This document shows, piece after piece, positions 1,029 through 42,539 of a stretch of 64,000 nt of DNA (positions within the stretch are counted from its first letter, which is position 1; the number at the start of each line of letters is the position of its first letter). A model generated the notes under the pieces. The model had not been told where the DNA came from and did not search any database. It saw only the letters and a program-made list of their open reading frames with translations. The stretch is from positions 3,202,800-3,266,799 of the forward strand of contig NC_087388.1 in NCBI RefSeq assembly GCF_963675165.1. The letters run 5' to 3'. This DNA is from Halichondria panicea. Lineage: Eukaryota > Porifera > Demospongiae > Suberitida > Halichondriidae. The translations under genes and the position numbers were made by a program.

Positions 1029-1579
1029 TCATGACCTACTCGATACGGCATCAAAGGGTGGGTTGGGCGGCAGGCTGGTCCCTGCTTTCCACATGAGTGA
1101 CACTCTGCATCCTTGAAACGCTGCGGAGTGATTCGACTTTCCACAGTGGTAACATGGCTGCGGTCTCCTTTTGCTTTGTATGTTCTGGGTTGCTGGCCTT
1201 GAGCGCTCTGGTGTTGCTCTCTCCTGTGCGATTTTCATTGCTCTCGTCTTGCTTCGCTTCGGAGTCCTGCAACGAAACGGTCACGTAGGGGATACGCCCC
1301 AAAATTGCAGTGTGTTGCCAGCTTGCGTAGAGCTGCATCGTATTCTGCTAAAGATTCGTCAGGGCCCTTTTTTGAAAATGAAAACGTTCTGCGATCACCG
1401 CTCGTGTCGGTTCGTAGTGCTTCCATAGTGCAGCAAATATTTCTCCCTGAGGCGAACTTCGTCTTCGCCTCGGGTGCAAGCAAGTCACATAGAAGACTGT
1501 AGGTCGTTGCACCAATGGATTGCTTATCCGTGAGGTAGAGGTCTACCTGATCCAGGTAGGACTCTTGGTCTGGTCCCAT
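1029..1579 (-). pseudogene. gag: Ty3/gypsy gag fragment with zinc knuckle
   Basis: Three overlapping minus-strand frames continue one another. The first (from 1579) has the gag-like text ESLAEYDAALRKLATHCNF followed by LRDRFVAGLR, typical of retrotransposon gag capsid regions in gypsy-type elements. The last frame carries a zinc-knuckle beginning CYHCGKSNHSAA. The protein is spread over three frames, so it is decayed. Upstream, at about 1590-1700, lies what may be the untranslated leader or LTR edge; no second LTR was found. Nothing downstream (below 1029) continues into protease or polymerase, so only the 5' part of the element survives here. Confidence 0.65.
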
Positions 1580-1799
1580 AGTGTGTGGCTGTAGGGTACT
1601 TGATCCACAATCCTCGTCGCCAGTGAGATAACTTCAATAATTTATTAAATCAGAACTCACAAAATACACAGGCTGTTTATACCAACTAAATAAGAACATG
1701 AAACCACTAGAACTAACACAACACAGTATTTCCGGAATCACAGTCTTTATCTAATGTTAGTTCCATGTCGTAAGGATACCACAATATGAATATGAATGT

Positions 1800-2260
1800 A
1801 CCTAGCAACTGACCACCCCCCCTAATTAGCGATTGTTTTGTATGAAGGTTGTGTTCTCAATATTCTCACGGGTCAGACGCCTCATGATGTCCACTGCTGT
1901 ACTAACGCTGATGCCTCGGTGAGTCTACCGTACCCCTATTCCCCAAAAACATTTGTAAAACATTTGTAACAGTCATTCCGCGAAAATTTATACCCTCGAA
2001 ATAATACCATACGGACAAAGGGTCAGAAAGATCGAGTGTGGAGCCGGGGAGTCTTCACACCCCTACCCGAATGGGTTTGTACAAAAGTCTCGCTGACCTA
2101 CCCGGATACATATCGCATGTTCATCAGTACTCTTGTATCTGCGTGTTCCCCTATGAACACATTCCTTAGTTCCCCATTCACTTCCTCTTCGCATGAAGAA
2201 GCCGATTAAAATAGCGCCTATGTTGCGCATGACATTTATAAACAGTGAATCTTGGCTGAC
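1800..2260 (-). repeat. piggyBac-type repeat family 1, partial copy
   Basis: Shares with other copies in this window the block CTAGCAACTGACCACCCCC followed by CTAATTAGCGATTGTTT, and further on ATGATGTCCACTGCTGTACTAAC. Related copies are at about 7549-8060, 28675-29440, 34760-35250 and 43840-44530. This copy lacks a clear terminal CCCTTT/TTAA end. Confidence 0.6.
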
Positions 2261-3029
2261 GTAAGCAGTGGTAGTACTCGTGCCTGATTCTTGGCAGAAT
2301 CAAGGTGACACTTTAATCAAGGTGACGTTGCAGGAAGTATCGGCCACAAGAAACTTTGTAAACTTTGTATACAGAAATCTTTAGTGTTCACAATGGCAAG
2401 GAAACAACACCCCCCCTCGTCGATGATGTAGAAGTCGATCAATTCGATCACTTTGATGGGGAACTCTCAGCTTAAAAAGTGTTAAGAAATTGTGTCATAA
2501 AAAAGGACGAAGCACACGATAGTAGAAGCTTCAGAGAGTACTTTTGATGGATCTACGAAACATACGATAAGTGTCTGTTAATGTCGTCGTTTTAATAACC
2601 CCTTAGCAGAAGTACAGGAAAAGGCCAACTAGTACCAATACCAAACACACCCTGAATCGAAACACACCCTGAAACACACCCTGAATCGACACACCCTGAA
2701 TCGAATTGAGATGAGCTTCCTCGTTCTGGTTTTTCAAATCGAGGCGATTGATGTGGGGATATTTGTCATGGCCAGAAACTGCAAGTACTGCAAAGCAAGT
2801 GGCAAGCGACTGATTCAGCACAGATGATGATGATATGAGCTGCTATGAGCTGCTATGATGACAATCAAGCAACATTGATATTTCAGATGATTTGGCTAAG
2901 TCCCTGTGCGTAGCCTGGCTACCAGTGAAGGTAATTTTCGGGGGACAAAATATTCATGGTGCATAATTCATGGTGCATAATAGGATGGCAAAGAACATGA
3001 GGTCACGATGGAGAGCTTTCAGTTATCCG
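2261..3029. other. no gene seen; simple local repeats
   Basis: No convincing coding exon. The stretch 2640-2705 is a run of short imperfect repeats of ACACACCCTGAATCGA, and two 12-15 bp head-to-tail duplications lie at about 2830 and 2955. Confidence 0.5.
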
Positions 3030-3400
3030 TCCGTAGTGAGTGCAGGCAGAGATTTTATGTAGTTATTAATGTTATTCATTGCAAGTGACATCATAAGGTC
3101 GCGTATTTGCTTAGCTAGATTATCTTTGGCAACAAATACGGCGGACCACAAATACGGTGGACTTAAATAAGGCCCTCAAAAGATAGATTGATTATGTTTC
3201 CTTGATGGGAAGTAAAAATGTAAAAATGTCCAAGTCCTTGTTTTTGAAGCTTAGCTTGATCTTGGCATCTTCAACGCAGTTCTCTTTAAGTGGCAAGACG
3301 TAGCTATATAACCAAATAATACAGTAAATTTTGGTATTGAAATCTGGACCCGGGCCGTAAGTGCGCAGTGTTGATACTATGAATGTCTCACTTGAAGTGC
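3030..3400 (+). repeat. dispersed repeat J, copy 1
   Basis: Matches 11015-11590 in order and orientation: a TTATTAATGTTATTCATTGCA block, then ATTATCTTTGGCAACAAATA, then GGCCCTCAAAAGATAGA, then TTGATCTTGGCATCTTC, then TTGGTATTGAAATCTGGACC. The spacing between blocks differs between copies. No terminal repeats or protein were recognised; probably a non-autonomous element. Confidence 0.7.
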
Positions 3401-34759: not shown

Positions 34760-35250
34760 CCATGTGGTAATGTATCTCAAAAACGAAATGCCAAGTCTTT
34801 GGTCTTTAGATTCTGCAAATGATCTACAACTGGTCCAAGAAACTCCAAAAAGTTAAGAAGCACTTTGTAAGATATAAATCCTATCATGTTTAATTTTATC
34901 AAGTCTAAAATGTAAAATTTTTTCTCTGCAGACCCTTTCCAGAAAGTACAGACATGTTTTGTTTTTCTAAAACAAAATCCATATCTTATGAACCATACAT
35001 TGAAATCACGTAGCCCAGACCCCGGGGGTACCATGACATCATCATCGTTACCTAGCAACTGACCACCCCCAACTAATTAGCGATTGTTTACAAACATTCA
35101 CAAATTGTGAATGGCACAAAGTGACTATAGACACTAAGTAAGTCTCAATGTTCTCATAGTTCTGCCGAAACTTCTCTGCGAGGTCGTATCAGCAGACGCC
35201 CTTTTCCCGGAAAATGTTCTTCACCTACCACCTACACACAGTTCAATGGT
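34760..35250 (-). repeat. piggyBac-type repeat family 1, minus-strand copy
   Basis: The reverse complement shares GGTGAAGAACATTTTCCGGG, CTCGCAGAGAAGTTTCGGCA, the CTAATTAGTTGGGGGTGGTC block and TACCCCCGGGGTCTGGGCTA with 28675-29440. The 93-codon open frame here is repeat sequence. The 7-kb element at 35292 inserted just beyond it. Confidence 0.65.
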
Positions 35251-35291
35251 GGCTCGTTCAGCTGGAGCTTCACCCCTGTTTACTGATTTCC

Positions 35292-35522
35292 CAGAGGAGG
35301 CTGGAACCACTTAACCTTAGCTAATTAAGGTCACTAATTGGATTTTTCACAAACTTCTCTTGCAGACTACTTCTTCCTTAGTTGTTGGTGTCTGCAAGCT
35401 TTTAAAGGTATTTTTCAGGGGGGGGTCAAATTTTGTTTTTGCCAATTTTGCTCAGAAGCAGAGATATGAATCAGTGCCCCTTGTGATGGCCTCGAGACAG
35501 GGAGCGGCCTGGTCTCGAGCAT
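35292..35522 (+). repeat. left terminal inverted repeat of the 7-kb element
   Basis: Pairs with 42053-42282. Differences seen: a G/C change in the TTTTTGCCAATTTT region and four versus three Cs in CAGTGCCCC. The inner end falls at CTCGAGCAT on both sides. Confidence 0.9.
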
Positions 35523-35731
35523 GCTATGCTGTCTATTGTAATTGTCAGACCAAGACTAGACTGGCAGTACCCTCTGTCTGGCAGTACCTCTCCTCTCTGT
35601 TCACTGCTATGTTTTCAAGAAGCAGACCAAGACGACATGCAAGAGACTCACCAGCAGGTGATACATCCACTCGAACTCCCATGCAACCTTCTAGGGAATG
35701 TGTAACGCCAAGATGAAGAAGGCCTAGCGAG

Positions 35732-38700
35732 ATGAATAGGTCCAGGTTGCCACCTAGGCAACTTAAACGCAGTTTCACTCCAAAAGAGCGAACACTACGG
35801 GACGTACCGGTACAAGTCAATTCCTGGACTGATGAAGAAGAACACTCCCTTATACTGTACATTATTGGCAAGGGCTTTGTTAAAGAGTGGCCTTCAACCA
35901 AGACCACTAAAGCATCTTTCTGGGAGGGTGCTGCAAGCCATACAGCAATTGGGATTCAGTATCAGGACAAGTGAGTTTTCTACTGTTAAGAGTATATGAC
36001 ATTTTGTATTGTAAGTTGCTACAATTTATTTTGGGTTGGATTCTGCCACACCGTAATCGTTCTAATTATTTTTTTTCTAGAAAAAGTGTCTGAAGAAAAT
36101 TGGTAGTATAATTATGGGCGTTATAAAAGAGGGCGTCCTAACCGAGGCTGTTTCTATAATTAGAACGCTACATGTACTATACATGTTTGGTCGTATTTTT
36201 AGTCTATACATGTACTGTACATGATATGGACCTATTAAATTTGTTCAGGTGGTAGTTGCCGATCAAAGATAATGCTCAAACTATGCAAGAAGTTTGTTTC
36301 CCCTAAAGAAGCCAAGAAGCAACTGAATGATGCCAGTGAGAGTGATTTGCCATCATCACACACCTCTTCTTCGCCTCCACTTGAAAGCTTAGTCAAGCGT
36401 CTACTTACATTGCCTCCTCAACCTGATCACTCTTATTCTCCTATGTCAGTTGAACACCTGGCTGTATCACCAGATGTTTCTCCTGAAGTGGTCGCAATGG
36501 ATGACCCCTTGTTCGAGGCATTTGTGTCCCTCCCTCAACAAGACCAAGTCAATCTTGTCAGTGACCTTTTGTCACACATTGCCGACAAGCAACACAGCGT
36601 ATCTGTACCAAAGGACTTTGTTCCTCTGCTGCTAAAAGGAATGGCACACTTAAATCGAAAGAACAAGCCAAATCTCATTTATGATTTTTGTCGCGGGCTA
36701 GGGTCACTCAGGCCTGATGGAAGCGATTCCTTAATTCCAACATCTAGGATGCCATTTGGGCTCTTGCAGTACTTGATAGAGTTTTTCACAACGCAAGGTG
36801 GTCTTAAGGTAAGTTATTTCCTGCAAACTTGTTTCTACATTCATAGTATCATTTTTGAAGTTATATTGCCCGGAAGACTACAAGCAGTGGCTGGAAACTA
36901 TGTACTCTCTCTTTGGGTCAAAGTGGTCAAAGCTTCATTGTGGGCCTATGTACAGCATTGAGTCTACAGAGCAAGGTAGTGGTCGTGAAAGAGATGATGC
37001 GTTTAACAGATTGAAGGTACAGTGTATACTTTGTATTGAATAATACTCACCAGAATTGCACTGTTTACAGGCTCGTGTAAATGTACCAGGACTGGGGGAA
37101 AGAGCACTCCGCACCAGTATTGCTAACAGTGGTTTTTACATTACTTGTGAACTCCAGGTAATATTGTGTAGTTACTTATTTTTACCATGTCACTTTTAAT
37201 ATCACACAAAGATGAAAGTAATTGAAGAGGCTCTCAGATTGCTCCCCTCTGCAAATTGGTGGATCAAGGCAGATGGGGTGGATGTCATCAGTAGCCTTGA
37301 AGAGTCTATGAGGCTGGAATGGAATGGAGATGTAGACCTAGGTAGACCTAGGAGATGGGCACACTCAAGCGTTGTATGAAGAGTATTGTGGAAGGTTAAA
37401 AAGTGCAGAAGACCTTGACCTATCACTTGGCAATGTGCACAGTGTAGCTGAATGTGTTCCAGTTCTGCTTGAGATACAACAAGCTATTTGTGATGACCTT
37501 GAATTCATCAACAAGTGTAAGTTTTGTGATTTTTATTCATCAACAAGTGTAAGTTTTGGTGATTTTTATTACAATTTTATTCTCTCTATGCAGGTCTTAT
37601 ATCTGCCACTTCAGATTATTCAAAAATGGTTACTTGCGATCATAGTGTATCAGAAAAGAAGTTGCGTAATGCTGGCTGGAAGGTTGACGAACTCTCACGA
37701 CTGAACAAGGCCGGCCGTCAAGTGAAAGTTGATATCCAGTGTGTAGTGGAACTTGCTGACCAAGGAAATTCCCAGCTTCACCGTATTCACCGTATCTGTA
37801 AAGCTGTAACTGGATATTTGAAAGGTCGAAACTCTTAATTGTATGTACATGTACACGTACACTGTGGTATAATTATGTAATAAATATGATTGTAAATGCC
37901 ATGTCTTTACAGGCTTATATCGTCACAAAAGGACAGCTGCAACGCATGTTCTGGCTGTTCTGGCTGTTATGATTAGTCCTGATGACCGGAGAAGGAAGCC
38001 ATATGCATTGCCTGTACAGTGTATTCCTTATGTTTCGCTATGTTTCGCTCAGTCATCTTCAAATCAGATCGATAGTGACGAATGTTGCGAAGGCAATGAA
38101 AGAGAAAGGAATGAATGTTGTTGGTGAGCTTGAAAATGTATGTTTATCCGTATCTCACCCTAAAATATTGACAGGTTTTGTGGCTAACGGTGAGTTTAAT
38201 TCATTGCGAAGTATGGGTTACTCTCGACCATTGTCAGTGCTCAAGCTAAAATCAAACGCACGGGCAAAATATGCTCAGATGGGGAAAGCAAAGATGATGC
38301 GAATGTTGTCTCCTACTTGTGAGTACATATGTTACATACCGTATAGCGCGAAATTTTCGAGGAACTTATATTTCGTGGAATGGCCTCTAAAAGCATTTCG
38401 TTGCACAATGTTTGCGGAATGACTGCTTACTGGAAGCCACGCCTTTAAATCTTTGCACGTTATAGTAATTAAAGAACAATTTTCGTCGACTTAATTTTCG
38501 TGTAGGATTGCTAACCCACGAAATCCACGAAAATAAGCCCCTCAAAAATTTCACGCTATACAGTACATAATACATAATGCTATACAGTCATGCACATACA
38601 TGTACATGACTGTATAGTATTATGTATTGTCTTACAGTGTGTACGTGTCTTAGTTTAACCTTTCTAGGCACAAGTACTGGTGATGTTGTAGGAGAGGAAC

Positions 38701-40084
38701 ACAACTGCGTTGTCCCGAGGGAGGTGCTTTGTGAGGTGTTACTTCTCAAAAGAAATGGAATGACAATGGAGGATATTGTCAGCCGGCTTAGATGTAGAAC
38801 TGTGCCATCTGGATACCCTATACATAGCTGGAGAACCTTGTCAGGTATACATGTCTTATCTCATTCTTATATTGTCAGTGATGTTTGTTTATACTTAGAT
38901 GGTGAAAGTGAGTCACTGGATGATAAACTACGCTCTATTCTTGCTCAAATGGAATTTACGCATGTTGTTCGCTCCTGGGACCAGAAAGGTGTGCCATTTC
39001 GCACGTACATATATGTACCGGAAGAACATCCAGAACTTGGCACAGTCTTCCACGAGCGCGAAGATGAAGGACATGTGTACAAGGTAAATAGAAGTTTATT
39101 TCTATTCATGCACTTCATTGCTTTTTAATAGAGAATGAGAAATTCGACTCTAATGGGTGGTCCAAAACGGTTCAAGCTGGAGCGCTTCAATGAAGCTGTT
39201 TATGATGAGTCAGCAAATCTTACCTACACAGCTTTGATTGGAAGAAGAAAGCAGTCAATTCGTGATGTGGAAAATTTTTTCTCGTCCTCTGTTGCCGATT
39301 TCATGAACCGAAAGGGATACACATATGAAGCTCAGTTTGTGACTACTGTACGAAACTGGAGACGTGCATGTGATGAACGTGGCCTCACCCAACTTAAAAG
39401 GTGCCAGTTCAACTATGAGCTGCTGAATATGTTGTTGGATGAGCTCATGCCATGGCATAGGACGCAATACGATCTCTCATTGATGGAAGTTAACAGGTAT
39501 GTGGTAGATACATATACTAGTATTGTAACAGTTATAATAATGCACTAGCTTTGTACATGTAATACGTAAGCATAAATTTGCTATTAGGCCCACACGTGGT
39601 GTTCTGGGATTCACTCGTGAGACCGTGATCAGAGAGTCGTGAATATGTGCGTCGTACTCACCCAAATCCAGAACACCCAAGAGCATCGACCACCGATGAC
39701 GTTGAGTGTCTATTCAGTATCATGCGTTACCTTGCAGGAAAGCATTTTACTGTTCGAACGTGGAACTATAATTGGCGAAAAGTATGCTCGGAACTATCGA
39801 AGCGGTTGGATCCAGATTTGGGCTTCTTCTATCACACCAGTTCTCATGATAGATTTTACGAGGGTGAGACGCCATCATTTGACAAAGAAGGAAAATCAAA
39901 ACGAAACCCACGAAATAGGCGAGTGAGAAGAAGAGAACTCCTAACAGACACGGTGTTTGGACGGGCTAGTCTCCCTGAGCCAGGAGCCACTTCCCTACGC
40001 TTGCAGTTCCACAATGTAGCAGTTGAACTACCACCACCTCCATCAAGTGTTTTGCCATTAACTGATCATACTTACACTTCGTAA
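35732..40084 (+). CDS. multi-exon gene of unknown family carried by the 7-kb element
   Basis: A first exon (35732-35972) encodes a SANT/trihelix-like segment (SWTDEEEHSLILYII, FWEGAASH), though its junction to the next exon is out of phase. Clear exons follow: 36081-36102, 36249-36808, 36861-37016, 37071-37156, 37212-37516, 37594 on, 37913-38124, 38175-38319, 38668-38844, 38899-39083, 39132-39496, 39589-40084. Conserved-looking blocks include FCRGLGSLRPDGSDS, GLGERALRTSIANSGFY, WWIKADGVDVI, MISPDDRRRKPYALPVQCIP, GFVANGEFNSLRS and DDVECLFSIMRYLAGKHF. Acidic positions in these could form a DDE-type site, but this is speculation. Duplications of 10 bp (37336-37356 and about 38019-38039) and one base near 39632 break the frame. 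I associate this protein with unnamed families in sponges and cnidarians; role as transposase is inferred from its position. Confidence 0.7.
38338..38567. mobile_element. TA-flanked MITE inside an intron
   Basis: The ends pair: TACCGTATAGCGCGAAATTT on the left and the reverse complement of GTACTGTATAGCGTGAAATT on the right, with TA outside, as for Tc1/mariner-type MITEs. A related partial sequence with GCTATACGGTATGTAC is at about 18565-18625. Confidence 0.7.
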
Positions 40085-40250
40085 TTTTTTTCACCCCTAT
40101 ACGTACCAATTTTCTGCTGTTTTATACTTATACACATGATTTTGTCATGTGTGTTAATGTTCATGTTTCCGTTTCAAATTTAATGACAAAAGAACAATAG
40201 CGAAATGAATTGCAATGTCCTTATAATCATGAGTAATTTAACAGATATAT

Positions 40251-40669
40251 GTGATGCAATTTGAGAAAACAGACCACTTGGCTTGGTCTAAAAAAGTTGA
40301 GATCTCTATGCATACTGATAGAGCAGAGAAATGCCTACACAATGCTATGCTTAGTCTGTACATACCTCATTCTATGACTAAGTTATAATCGTTTGAAGTT
40401 GGTTGCTATGAAATTGCATTATTGAAAAAACGCCATTCAAAGATGCCCTACTCCATTAGTAAGCCTATGTTTTGCGTTTTTTGACGAAGCACTGAGGTGA
40501 ACATATTTGGATTTAGAGCACCAGCCTTCACATAGAGATAGTAGAAAGGCTATAGATACTTGTAAACTTATAAAACTAAATTCATCACTTTGCACTCAAG
40601 GTCACAAATTTGCCTCTAGCTCAAATTGAAAATCTAAGCCAAGTGGTCTGTTTTCTCAGATTGCATCAC
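40251..40669. mobile_element. 419-bp MITE, ATAT-flanked (second copy)
   Basis: The ends read GTGATGCAATTTGAGAAAAC and the near reverse complement, flanked by ATAT on both sides. Same length as 17476-17894 with matching inner blocks. It lies between the two convergent genes of the 7-kb element. A remnant of its right end is at 62391-62440. Confidence 0.8.
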
Positions 40670-40901
40670 ATATAAGAATGAACACAGTATATGTATAATT
40701 ATTGGAAGTTCCACTAAATATATACATACTGTAGCTATAGACTAATTATGATTATTTGAAGTTTCATGTACATTGTACGCGTGGATAATCACCTAGTACT
40801 AGAAGCCCTCATGACAGCAGTAGACCACTTGCCTTTTTTGTAACATTCACTCCTGCGAAAAATCCTGGACCTGATCGACTCCAGTCTGTTATGTATTTGA
40901 T

Positions 40902-41872
40902 CTACTTGAAAGAAACACTTAAAATCTCCCCTCGGGCCAATACATTACACACCTCGTGAGAAATTTCTTTTACTACATAACCAATTCTTAAGAATTTGCC
41001 ATCCTTTAGAGTGAGGAAAGCGACAGCATTGGGATCGTAGGGATTGTTGGGTTCACGTTGGAGCTTTACTTTGACAACACTATGCTCCTCAATCATGTTT
41101 CTTGCCCAAACCAGCACTGACTGATAAATCGTCTCCTTGGTGCACCCGATTACCTTAAAGGTGACTGTGTGTCTATCAGTATTATGTGCTTGGTCAGCTT
41201 CTACACCAGAAGATGCGTCACTTGGTTCACTGTCGTTATCAGAAAAGTCTTCATTACTGTCAGATGAATGATAATTAAGGTGAACAATCACTTCCCACTC
41301 CCAAATTACCAAAACTTGTCCATTCAGTTTCAGCCCAGATATTTTTGCTGATTTTTTTAGCTCTTCAACCTAGTCAACTCTTCAACCTAGTCAAATAAAA
41401 TAATTATAATTAAACATCACCATGAAGTGCATGGTTAACAGTATGAGTATGATTAAACCATGCATGGTAACAGTATTACTAAACATACCTCAATCTTACA
41501 ATACTTCAACATTCTTAAACAAGTCGGTACAACAATAGCAGAGTCGTTTTCTTTAATAAAAGCATCGATATCATTAACAGTCCCTAGGCTGGTAGTACAC
41601 CTGCAGCGAATATGCCGCAAATTAACTGTAAGAAGGCTGAGTTTCACATCAGTATATTGATACATATTGCCACTCCATACAACATCCATTTCCTCGCTGC
41701 ATGAATCCTCCTCTTTTGAAGTTGGTGTTAAACTATCATCAGAATCACTTGAACTTTCAGGTCTCAGCTGTTTAAGAATGGGTGTCAGCCTTTTTGCTCT
41801 CTTTTTTGGTAGACCACATGTAGATCCACCTGTTGGTGAGTTCTGGTCTCTTGGTATGCTTCTTGAAGCCAT
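40902..41872 (-). CDS. HIRAN-domain gene of the 7-kb element
   Basis: Two exons, 41872-41489 and 41369-40902, splice in phase to about 283 residues with no internal break. The N-terminus (MASRSIPRDQNSPTGGSTCG) is basic and Ser-rich, followed by an acidic Ser/Asp stretch (ESSSDSDDSLTPTSKEEDSC). Exon 2 has a second acidic linker (SDSNEDFSDNDSEPSDASSG) and a C-terminal HIRAN domain: VVKVKLQREPNNPYDPNAVA, FLRIGYVVKEI, then VLARGEILSV. HIRAN domains (HIP116/HLTF, Rad5) bind DNA, in HLTF the 3' single-stranded end. Here no helicase or RING domain accompanies it. An 18-mer tract around the intron acceptor is duplicated (41361-41394); only the inner acceptor keeps the frame open. Convergent with the large gene, 0.8 kb away. 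Confidence 0.8.
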
Positions 41873-42052
41873 AATGATATTGATTTGTGAACAAAGAGGT
41901 ACTGCCAGTACAGTGCAGTCTAGTCTAGTCGTGGCCTGACTATTAATGATAAGTCTTGTTCAAGTCTTGTTCAGCTCCAACTCCTCTACACTGTATACAG
42001 GTTCTTCTTGTATAGTCTCTTCTTAGTATAATTCTGTAGTACTCAGTATAAT

Positions 42053-42282
42053 ATGCTCGAGACCAGGCCGCTCCCTGTCTCGAGGCCATCACAAGGGCAC
42101 TGATTCATATCTCTGCTTCTGAGCAAAATTGGCGAAAACAAAATTTGACCCCCCCCTGAAAAATACCTTTAAAAGCTTGCAGACACCAACAACTAAGGAA
42201 GAAGTAGTCTGCAAGAGAAGTTTGTGAAAAATCCAATTAGTGACCTTAATTAGCTAAGGTTAAGTGGTTCCAGCCTCCTCTG
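42053..42282 (-). repeat. right terminal inverted repeat of the 7-kb element
   Basis: Reverse complement of 35292-35522, ending CCTCCTCTG at 42282 and followed by the target duplication CTGATTTCC. Confidence 0.9.
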
Positions 42283-42539
42283 CTGATTTCCAGAACGAAA
42301 AATGCAAGCAAGTAGTTTTTGAGCAGGGCTAGCTTAGTATCTACTCTATCTTTATATTCTTTGTTTCTGACTGATATAGATTGTTATCGTGTGACTATTG
42401 CAATCTAGTGTATGCTATTTTCGAGCCTTCTTTTGGGATCCTTGCTGCCAGGTGTATAGCACCAGTGTTTGTTGTAAGCCAGTCTTGCACGAGAAAAAGT
42501 TGACAATAATTGATCGCTCCGATTATTGCTACATCCGTA

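Follow-up and report, generated by a model that had tools for sequence, protein, structure and literature searches.

What kind of transposon occupies positions 35292-42282 of a 64,000-nucleotide stretch of Halichondria panicea contig NC_087388.1 (the window)? The first-pass annotation had proposed either an undescribed superfamily or a very divergent branch of the Mutator-like elements (MULEs). In our view it is highly probable that a cut-and-paste DNA transposon with two genes, a transposase gene and a partner gene with a HIRAN domain, is present here as a dead copy, and that it belongs to a divergent clade allied to the P-element superfamily. By direct reading and a repeat search, the element is 6,991 bp long with terminal inverted repeats (TIRs) of about 239 bp and a 9-bp target-site duplication (TSD):

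35283..35291, no strand, left 9-bp TSD, CTGATTTCC
35292..35531, + strand, left TIR, starting CAGAGGAGGCTGG (repeat search; genomic matches)
42044..42282, - strand, right TIR (repeat search)
42283..42291, no strand, right 9-bp TSD, CTGATTTCC

The earlier description of the ends holds in each respect: TIRs put at about 230 bp, with one substitution and one single-base gap, a CAGAGG start on both, and the same 9-mer exactly bounding both sides.

The 131-Mb genome of H. panicea was searched with the left TIR, which matched at least 71 places (the best 40 of 239 candidates were scored), so the TIR pair is not due to chance. Among 37 regions examined around these matches, both ends were found in order (within the pattern limit) in 21, namely a second full element at C8:4921926-4929773 (the C8 copy) with an 8-bp duplication, and 20 small copies. 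A perfect 9-bp duplication flanks 18 of the 20 small copies, while L036 has one of 8 bp and L042 has none; apart from the C8 copy, most of the copies examined are miniature inverted-repeat transposable elements (MITEs) of about 430 bp. Neither outcome that the first-pass annotation named as refuting it was found: there are many copies with the same ends, and a single-copy host gene is ruled out, since the transposase belongs to a multi-copy family. The small copies (L012-L045) fall into two sets of ten, at 1.6-3.7% and 9.8-11.4% divergence from the consensus, and are therefore probably two MITE subfamilies of different age, as judged from divergence.

Other families with full elements have ends that likewise start CAGAGGAGG, and exact 9-bp duplications flank two of these elements (C7:6989116-6994810 and C8:4372657-4378193, the latter called C8b) as well as the deletion derivative L051. 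Judged by eye, the duplication of C10 agrees at 8 of 9 bases, that of L100 at 6 of 9, and that of C15 in the 7 bases visible; L053 and C1a showed no target duplication by eye, and one end of L052 and of L054 was not found in the pattern search. No second place common to both flanks of the window insertion, which would mark an empty site, appeared among the genome matches listed. The window and C8 copies differ by 16 substitutions and 15 indels; two of the indels are large, the C8 copy carrying an insertion of 1,298 bp and the window copy a nested element of 423 bp. The first-pass label of a young element should not be based on how alike its TIRs are, because insertion of a DNA transposon does not make them identical; how closely the element resembles the C8 copy is better evidence.

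Two convergent spliced genes had been recognized inside the element. Both are real, but both are broken in the window copy relative to the C8 copy, which had gone unnoticed. Their exons are as follows (read from the C8 copy where no other basis is given):

35609..35984, + strand, transposase exon 1, Myb/SANT-like N-terminus (boundaries by hand)
36081..36102, + strand, transposase exon 2 (the C8-copy counterpart joins in frame, GT-AG)
36249..36808, + strand, transposase exon 3
36861..37016, + strand, transposase exon 4
37071..37157, + strand, transposase exon 5
37212..37516, + strand, transposase exon 6, first catalytic Asp in WWIKADGVD (C8 comparison and alignment)
37594..37824, + strand, transposase exon 7, part of an extra helical insert (C8-copy reading and model)
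37913..38123, + strand, transposase exon 8, RNase H strands beta2-beta3 (region under PF21787 in homologues)
38175..38318, + strand, transposase exon 9, second catalytic position, Asn, in VANGEFNSLR
38668..38844, + strand, transposase exon 10
38899..39083, + strand, transposase exon 11, D(2)H motif REDEGH
39132..39496, + strand, transposase exon 12, insertion domain with the ACDERGL motif (its Asp in 126 of 126 aligned proteins)
39588..40084, + strand, transposase exon 13, catalytic Glu in TTDDVECLFS (C8 comparison and alignment)
40902..41369, - strand, HIRAN gene exon 2, HIRAN domain with the NNPYD motif (Pfam PF08797, 37.2 bits against a curated cut-off of 24.7)
41489..41872, - strand, HIRAN gene exon 1 (boundaries by hand; open reading frame with an in-phase GT donor)

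Compared with the C8 copy, the transposase gene carries a TGA in exon 1 (35714-35716), where 2 bp are also lacking at 35941, its reading frame is shifted in exon 6 by tandem duplication of 10 bp at 37332, exon 8 has a 9-bp duplication at 37947 and a frameshifting 10-bp duplication at 38029, and exon 13 is frameshifted by the loss of 17 bp at 39631. Exon 2 of the HIRAN gene stops at a premature TAG (a nonsense change at 40903) where the C8 copy continues for 38 residues, and a 17-bp duplication lies at the edge of the intron (41361). Judged from these lesions, the window copy is dead, disabled in both genes. The C8 transposase frame stays open over 975 residues beyond exon 1, its introns being of the GT-AG type; exon 1 itself is interrupted by the insertion of 1,298 bp, and TTDDVE has Asn in place of its first Asp. 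The four tandem duplications of the window copy (10, 9, 10 and 17 bp) stand against only 16 substitutions with the C8 copy as reference, and might have been left behind by excised elements or by end-joining repair.

The affinity of the transposase was read from a structural model of P0121, a homologue from Dysidea avara that is 45% identical to the C8 protein, and it is this homologue, not the window protein itself, to which the fold comparison applies. The model showed an RNase H fold of the P type with an insertion domain between beta5 and alpha4, and both the model and the homologues scored far higher against P transposase than against any other transposase in the list. The fold alignment with P extends into the GTP-binding insertion domain, where the invariant Asp of ACDERGL is read as the place of D444. 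D954 sits three residues before the catalytic Glu, as D528 does in P, and among the aligned homologues the first catalytic Asp (D1), the D(2)H motif and the catalytic Glu (E) are kept and the second catalytic position (D2) is variable. At E<=1 the Pfam family PF21787 (TNP-like_RNaseH_N) matched 9 of 10 homologues, and for 3 of these the match was over the cut-off. At the N-terminal end, residues 75-148 of the P0121 model form confident helices, and the homologue P0123 has a weak match to Myb_DNA-bind_4 (E 0.016). Taken together, the element most likely represents a P-like clade allied to the P superfamily rather than a canonical P element, since the 8-bp TSD and the THAP end are both missing.

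Drosophila P transposase (PDB 6p5a, 6pe2) has a THAP end in place of the Myb/SANT-like end, and extra helical stretches (P0121 residues 427-563 and 640-771) set the clade apart from it; the P element has an 8-bp TSD and 31-bp TIRs, in contrast to the mostly 9-bp TSD, the TIRs of about 239 bp and the second gene found here. Galileo, a Drosophila member of the P superfamily, resembles the window element in its unusually long TIRs and differs in the THAP domain of its transposase, its single gene and its 7-bp TSD. THAP9 and zebrafish Pdre2, P-like transposases of animals, share the triad layout; they differ in the THAP domain, and the zebrafish element also in its 8-bp TSD and 13-bp TIRs. MuDR has a 9-bp TSD, long TIRs and two genes in common with the window element, but transposase fold and profile evidence point to P instead. 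The canonical P elements of H. panicea itself (for example L090, L091, L092 and L095) have the Asp-Gly block and the D(2)H motif in common with the window clade, but match both PF21787 and PF21788 over the cut-off and have Asp at D2 in the four read. The genome holds 46 canonical P-type PF21787 matches (C16:4254274, C1:9759107 and others), 11 with open frames of more than 550 codons.

The HIRAN domain noticed in the first pass is well supported by its Pfam score. The best PDB match of the exon 2 protein is HLTF (E 0.007), the window LQREPNNPYD aligning with LQRDPNNPYD of the HLTF HIRAN domain (PDB 2mzn, 4xzf, 5bnh); HLTF differs in that the window protein is short and has no SNF2 or RING domain in its two exons. 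According to two reports, N90 and N91 of HLTF are the residues mutated to disable the domain, which binds 3'-ended single strands or forks, the sources differing on specificity (PMC4666394, PMC11237066). The window HIRAN protein, in which the NNPYD pocket motif is kept, may likewise bind 3' ends. When 44 HIRAN matches (43 loci) were compared genome-wide with 92 transposase exon matches (25 clusters), a HIRAN match lay within 2.4 kb of 16 of the 25 clusters, whereas by our arithmetic about 0.04 such neighbours are expected by chance. This co-location shows that the gene for the HIRAN protein regularly forms part of the element. Away from the listed clusters lie the other 27 HIRAN loci; two inspected (C2:5807087 and C12:4927503) adjoin transposase remnants, and others are probably host genes.

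Canonical P elements were rejected as carriers of the same HIRAN gene. Among 27 PF21788 places compared (29 matches; the two omitted adjoin listed ones), only one lay within 10 kb of a HIRAN match, and this P element has its own inverted repeat of about 32 bp, the HIRAN gene belonging to a separate neighbouring element of about 2 kb. In the PMC literature, the HIRAN domain and transposable elements came up together only in work on sea-water viruses. Viral relatives of the element were also rejected: 33 stretches in viral contigs matched a search pattern and none encoded a relative, and the one match at E<=0.001 in a viral fold library (9.8e-4, probability 0.14, TM-scores 0.06 and 0.05) was not credited.

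We propose that the transposase would bind the CAGAGGAGG inverted repeats via its Myb/SANT-like and helix-turn-helix N-terminus, and that the RNase H core with its P-type insertion domain, seen in the homologue model, would cut and join the DNA. Insertion proceeds with a stagger of 9 bp, sometimes 8 bp, as the duplications show. P elements leave unusually long 3' overhangs, and because of these and of the HLTF HIRAN domain, the HIRAN protein may bind 3' single-stranded ends at cleavage or repair, a tentative assignment to which we give somewhat less than an even chance. The MITEs and the internally deleted copies that keep HIRAN would be mobilised in trans.

A number of observations weigh against parts of this reading, and we give them with the alternatives on which they bear. 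The HIRAN role itself is argued by analogy, and the protein might instead be a repressor or a factor for escape from silencing. Four internal deletion derivatives of about 2.1 kb (L051, L052 in reverse, L053 and L054) retain HIRAN and both the Myb and the C-terminal end but have lost the catalytic core, which recalls the KP repressors of P elements. We think this alternative fairly unlikely. A functionless passenger, taken up a single time from the host by an ancestor, is a quite unlikely account of the HIRAN gene. The domain is widespread and the H. panicea genome has further copies of it, and 9 of the 25 transposase clusters have no HIRAN match among the genome matches, though C16 among them has a partial one, found only with the query of another family. 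Co-divergence of HIRAN and transposase was examined and dropped, because the correlation (Mantel r 0.78, p 2e-4, 12 loci) was lost once near-copies were removed (r 0.03, p 0.44, 9 loci); vertical co-inheritance is no more than plausible. On the other hand, HIRAN persists across families whose transposases are about half identical and is convergent in 16 of 16, Asn stands at the place of HLTF N91 in 9 of 9 families aligned with Asp three residues on in 8 of 9, and HIRAN is kept in the core-less derivatives, with one stop inside the matched stretch.

On the side of the transposase, the window/C8 protein itself has no Pfam match. PF21787 detected none of the clade's loci in the H. panicea genome at E<=0.001, the GTP-binding family PF21788 was unmatched at E<=1 by the 10 homologues, Pfam scans of the C8 protein and its homologues detected no THAP domain, PDB sequence searches gave no transposase match, and the hhalign probability is low. 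The TSD is mostly 9 bp, not the 8 bp described for P and THAP9 elements. With only 14% identity to P in the structural alignment, another DNA-binding end, two extra inserts, a HIRAN partner, and 155 residues from D2 to the Asp of D(2)H (P0121) against 36 in the Drosophila protein, the clade might be a separate superfamily that has only the general architecture of a DDE core with a helical insert in common with P, hAT, RAG and Transib. We regard this as very unlikely: the P-type fold of the homologue and the PF21787 matches point to P, and the element is most likely not a new superfamily. A very divergent MULE is highly improbable: the 9-bp TSD and long TIRs are present and the [C/D](2)H motif found here between D2 and E also occurs in MULEs, but, as the first-pass annotation had sensed in finding no MULE hallmarks, no Pfam scan gave a MULE transposase domain (a very distant relative could escape), and although structure alone does not exclude a MULE, because no MULE chain was among those compared, fold and profile evidence together point to P and we do not class the element as a MULE.

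One further point against the P-like reading is that the window family has Asn, encoded by AAC in the window, at the place of the second catalytic Asp. In alignment A3 (60 rows), the D2 column has 30 Asp, 7 Asn, 5 others that seem misaligned and 18 gaps. Asn occurs in five distinct H. panicea families (window/C8, C1b, C7, C10 with its near-copy C15, and C8b), in every case seen before Gly-Glu (NGE), and Asp in C5, C4 and C14 with its near-copy C16. On the tree, parsimony requires at least five changes at D2, two of them forced by well-supported branches. Of 36 family pairs compared over 231 codons in three conserved segments, 35 had proportions of 0.75-0.99 for synonymous and 0.21-0.35 for nonsynonymous differences, whether of the Asn or the Asp type; the remaining pair, C10-C15, consists of near-copies. 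The Asn-type transposases thus evolve under constraint in these segments. Conceivably the Asn lineages kept moving and stayed under purifying selection, with an active Asp arising through adenosine-to-inosine editing at the codon for Asn or through spontaneous deamidation of Asn-Gly, which would build a delay or switch into the transposase, or with the Asn or neighbouring Glu being catalytic, while HIRAN guards the 3' overhangs; we consider this unlikely. No description of Asn or deamidation in transposases was found in the PMC literature.

Under the P-like reading, the P-type transposases would come to include a clade, found here in sponges, lancelets and a sea anemone, that differs from known members in its DNA-binding end, its integration stagger and its partner gene. 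As a protein with a known relative that attaches to single-stranded 3' ends, the HIRAN product is a candidate, open to test, for dealing with the long P-type 3' overhangs, and if Asn has repeatedly replaced a catalytic Asp in lineages that are mobile and constrained, this would call a fixed DDE triad into question.

Several further elements were seen in and around these copies. Between the two genes of the window copy lies one that is absent from the C8 copy:

40247..40669, no strand, nested 423-bp inverted-repeat element (repeat search)

The 1,298-bp insertion in the C8 copy (L009, about 999-2296) has CAGGGGCGGATCCAGG ends, is of another transposon type and has the 5-bp repeat ACTGT at its edges. 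L100 contains at 1075-3073 a CAGAGGAGG element of about 2 kb with a HIRAN match and a remnant of the transposase C-terminus, and its pattern of three or four internal TGA codons is common to nine HIRAN matches. The left flank of the window element holds, at 35161-35255, a high-copy repeat of about 95 bp, with at least 40 genomic matches (the best 40 of 271 candidates were scored).

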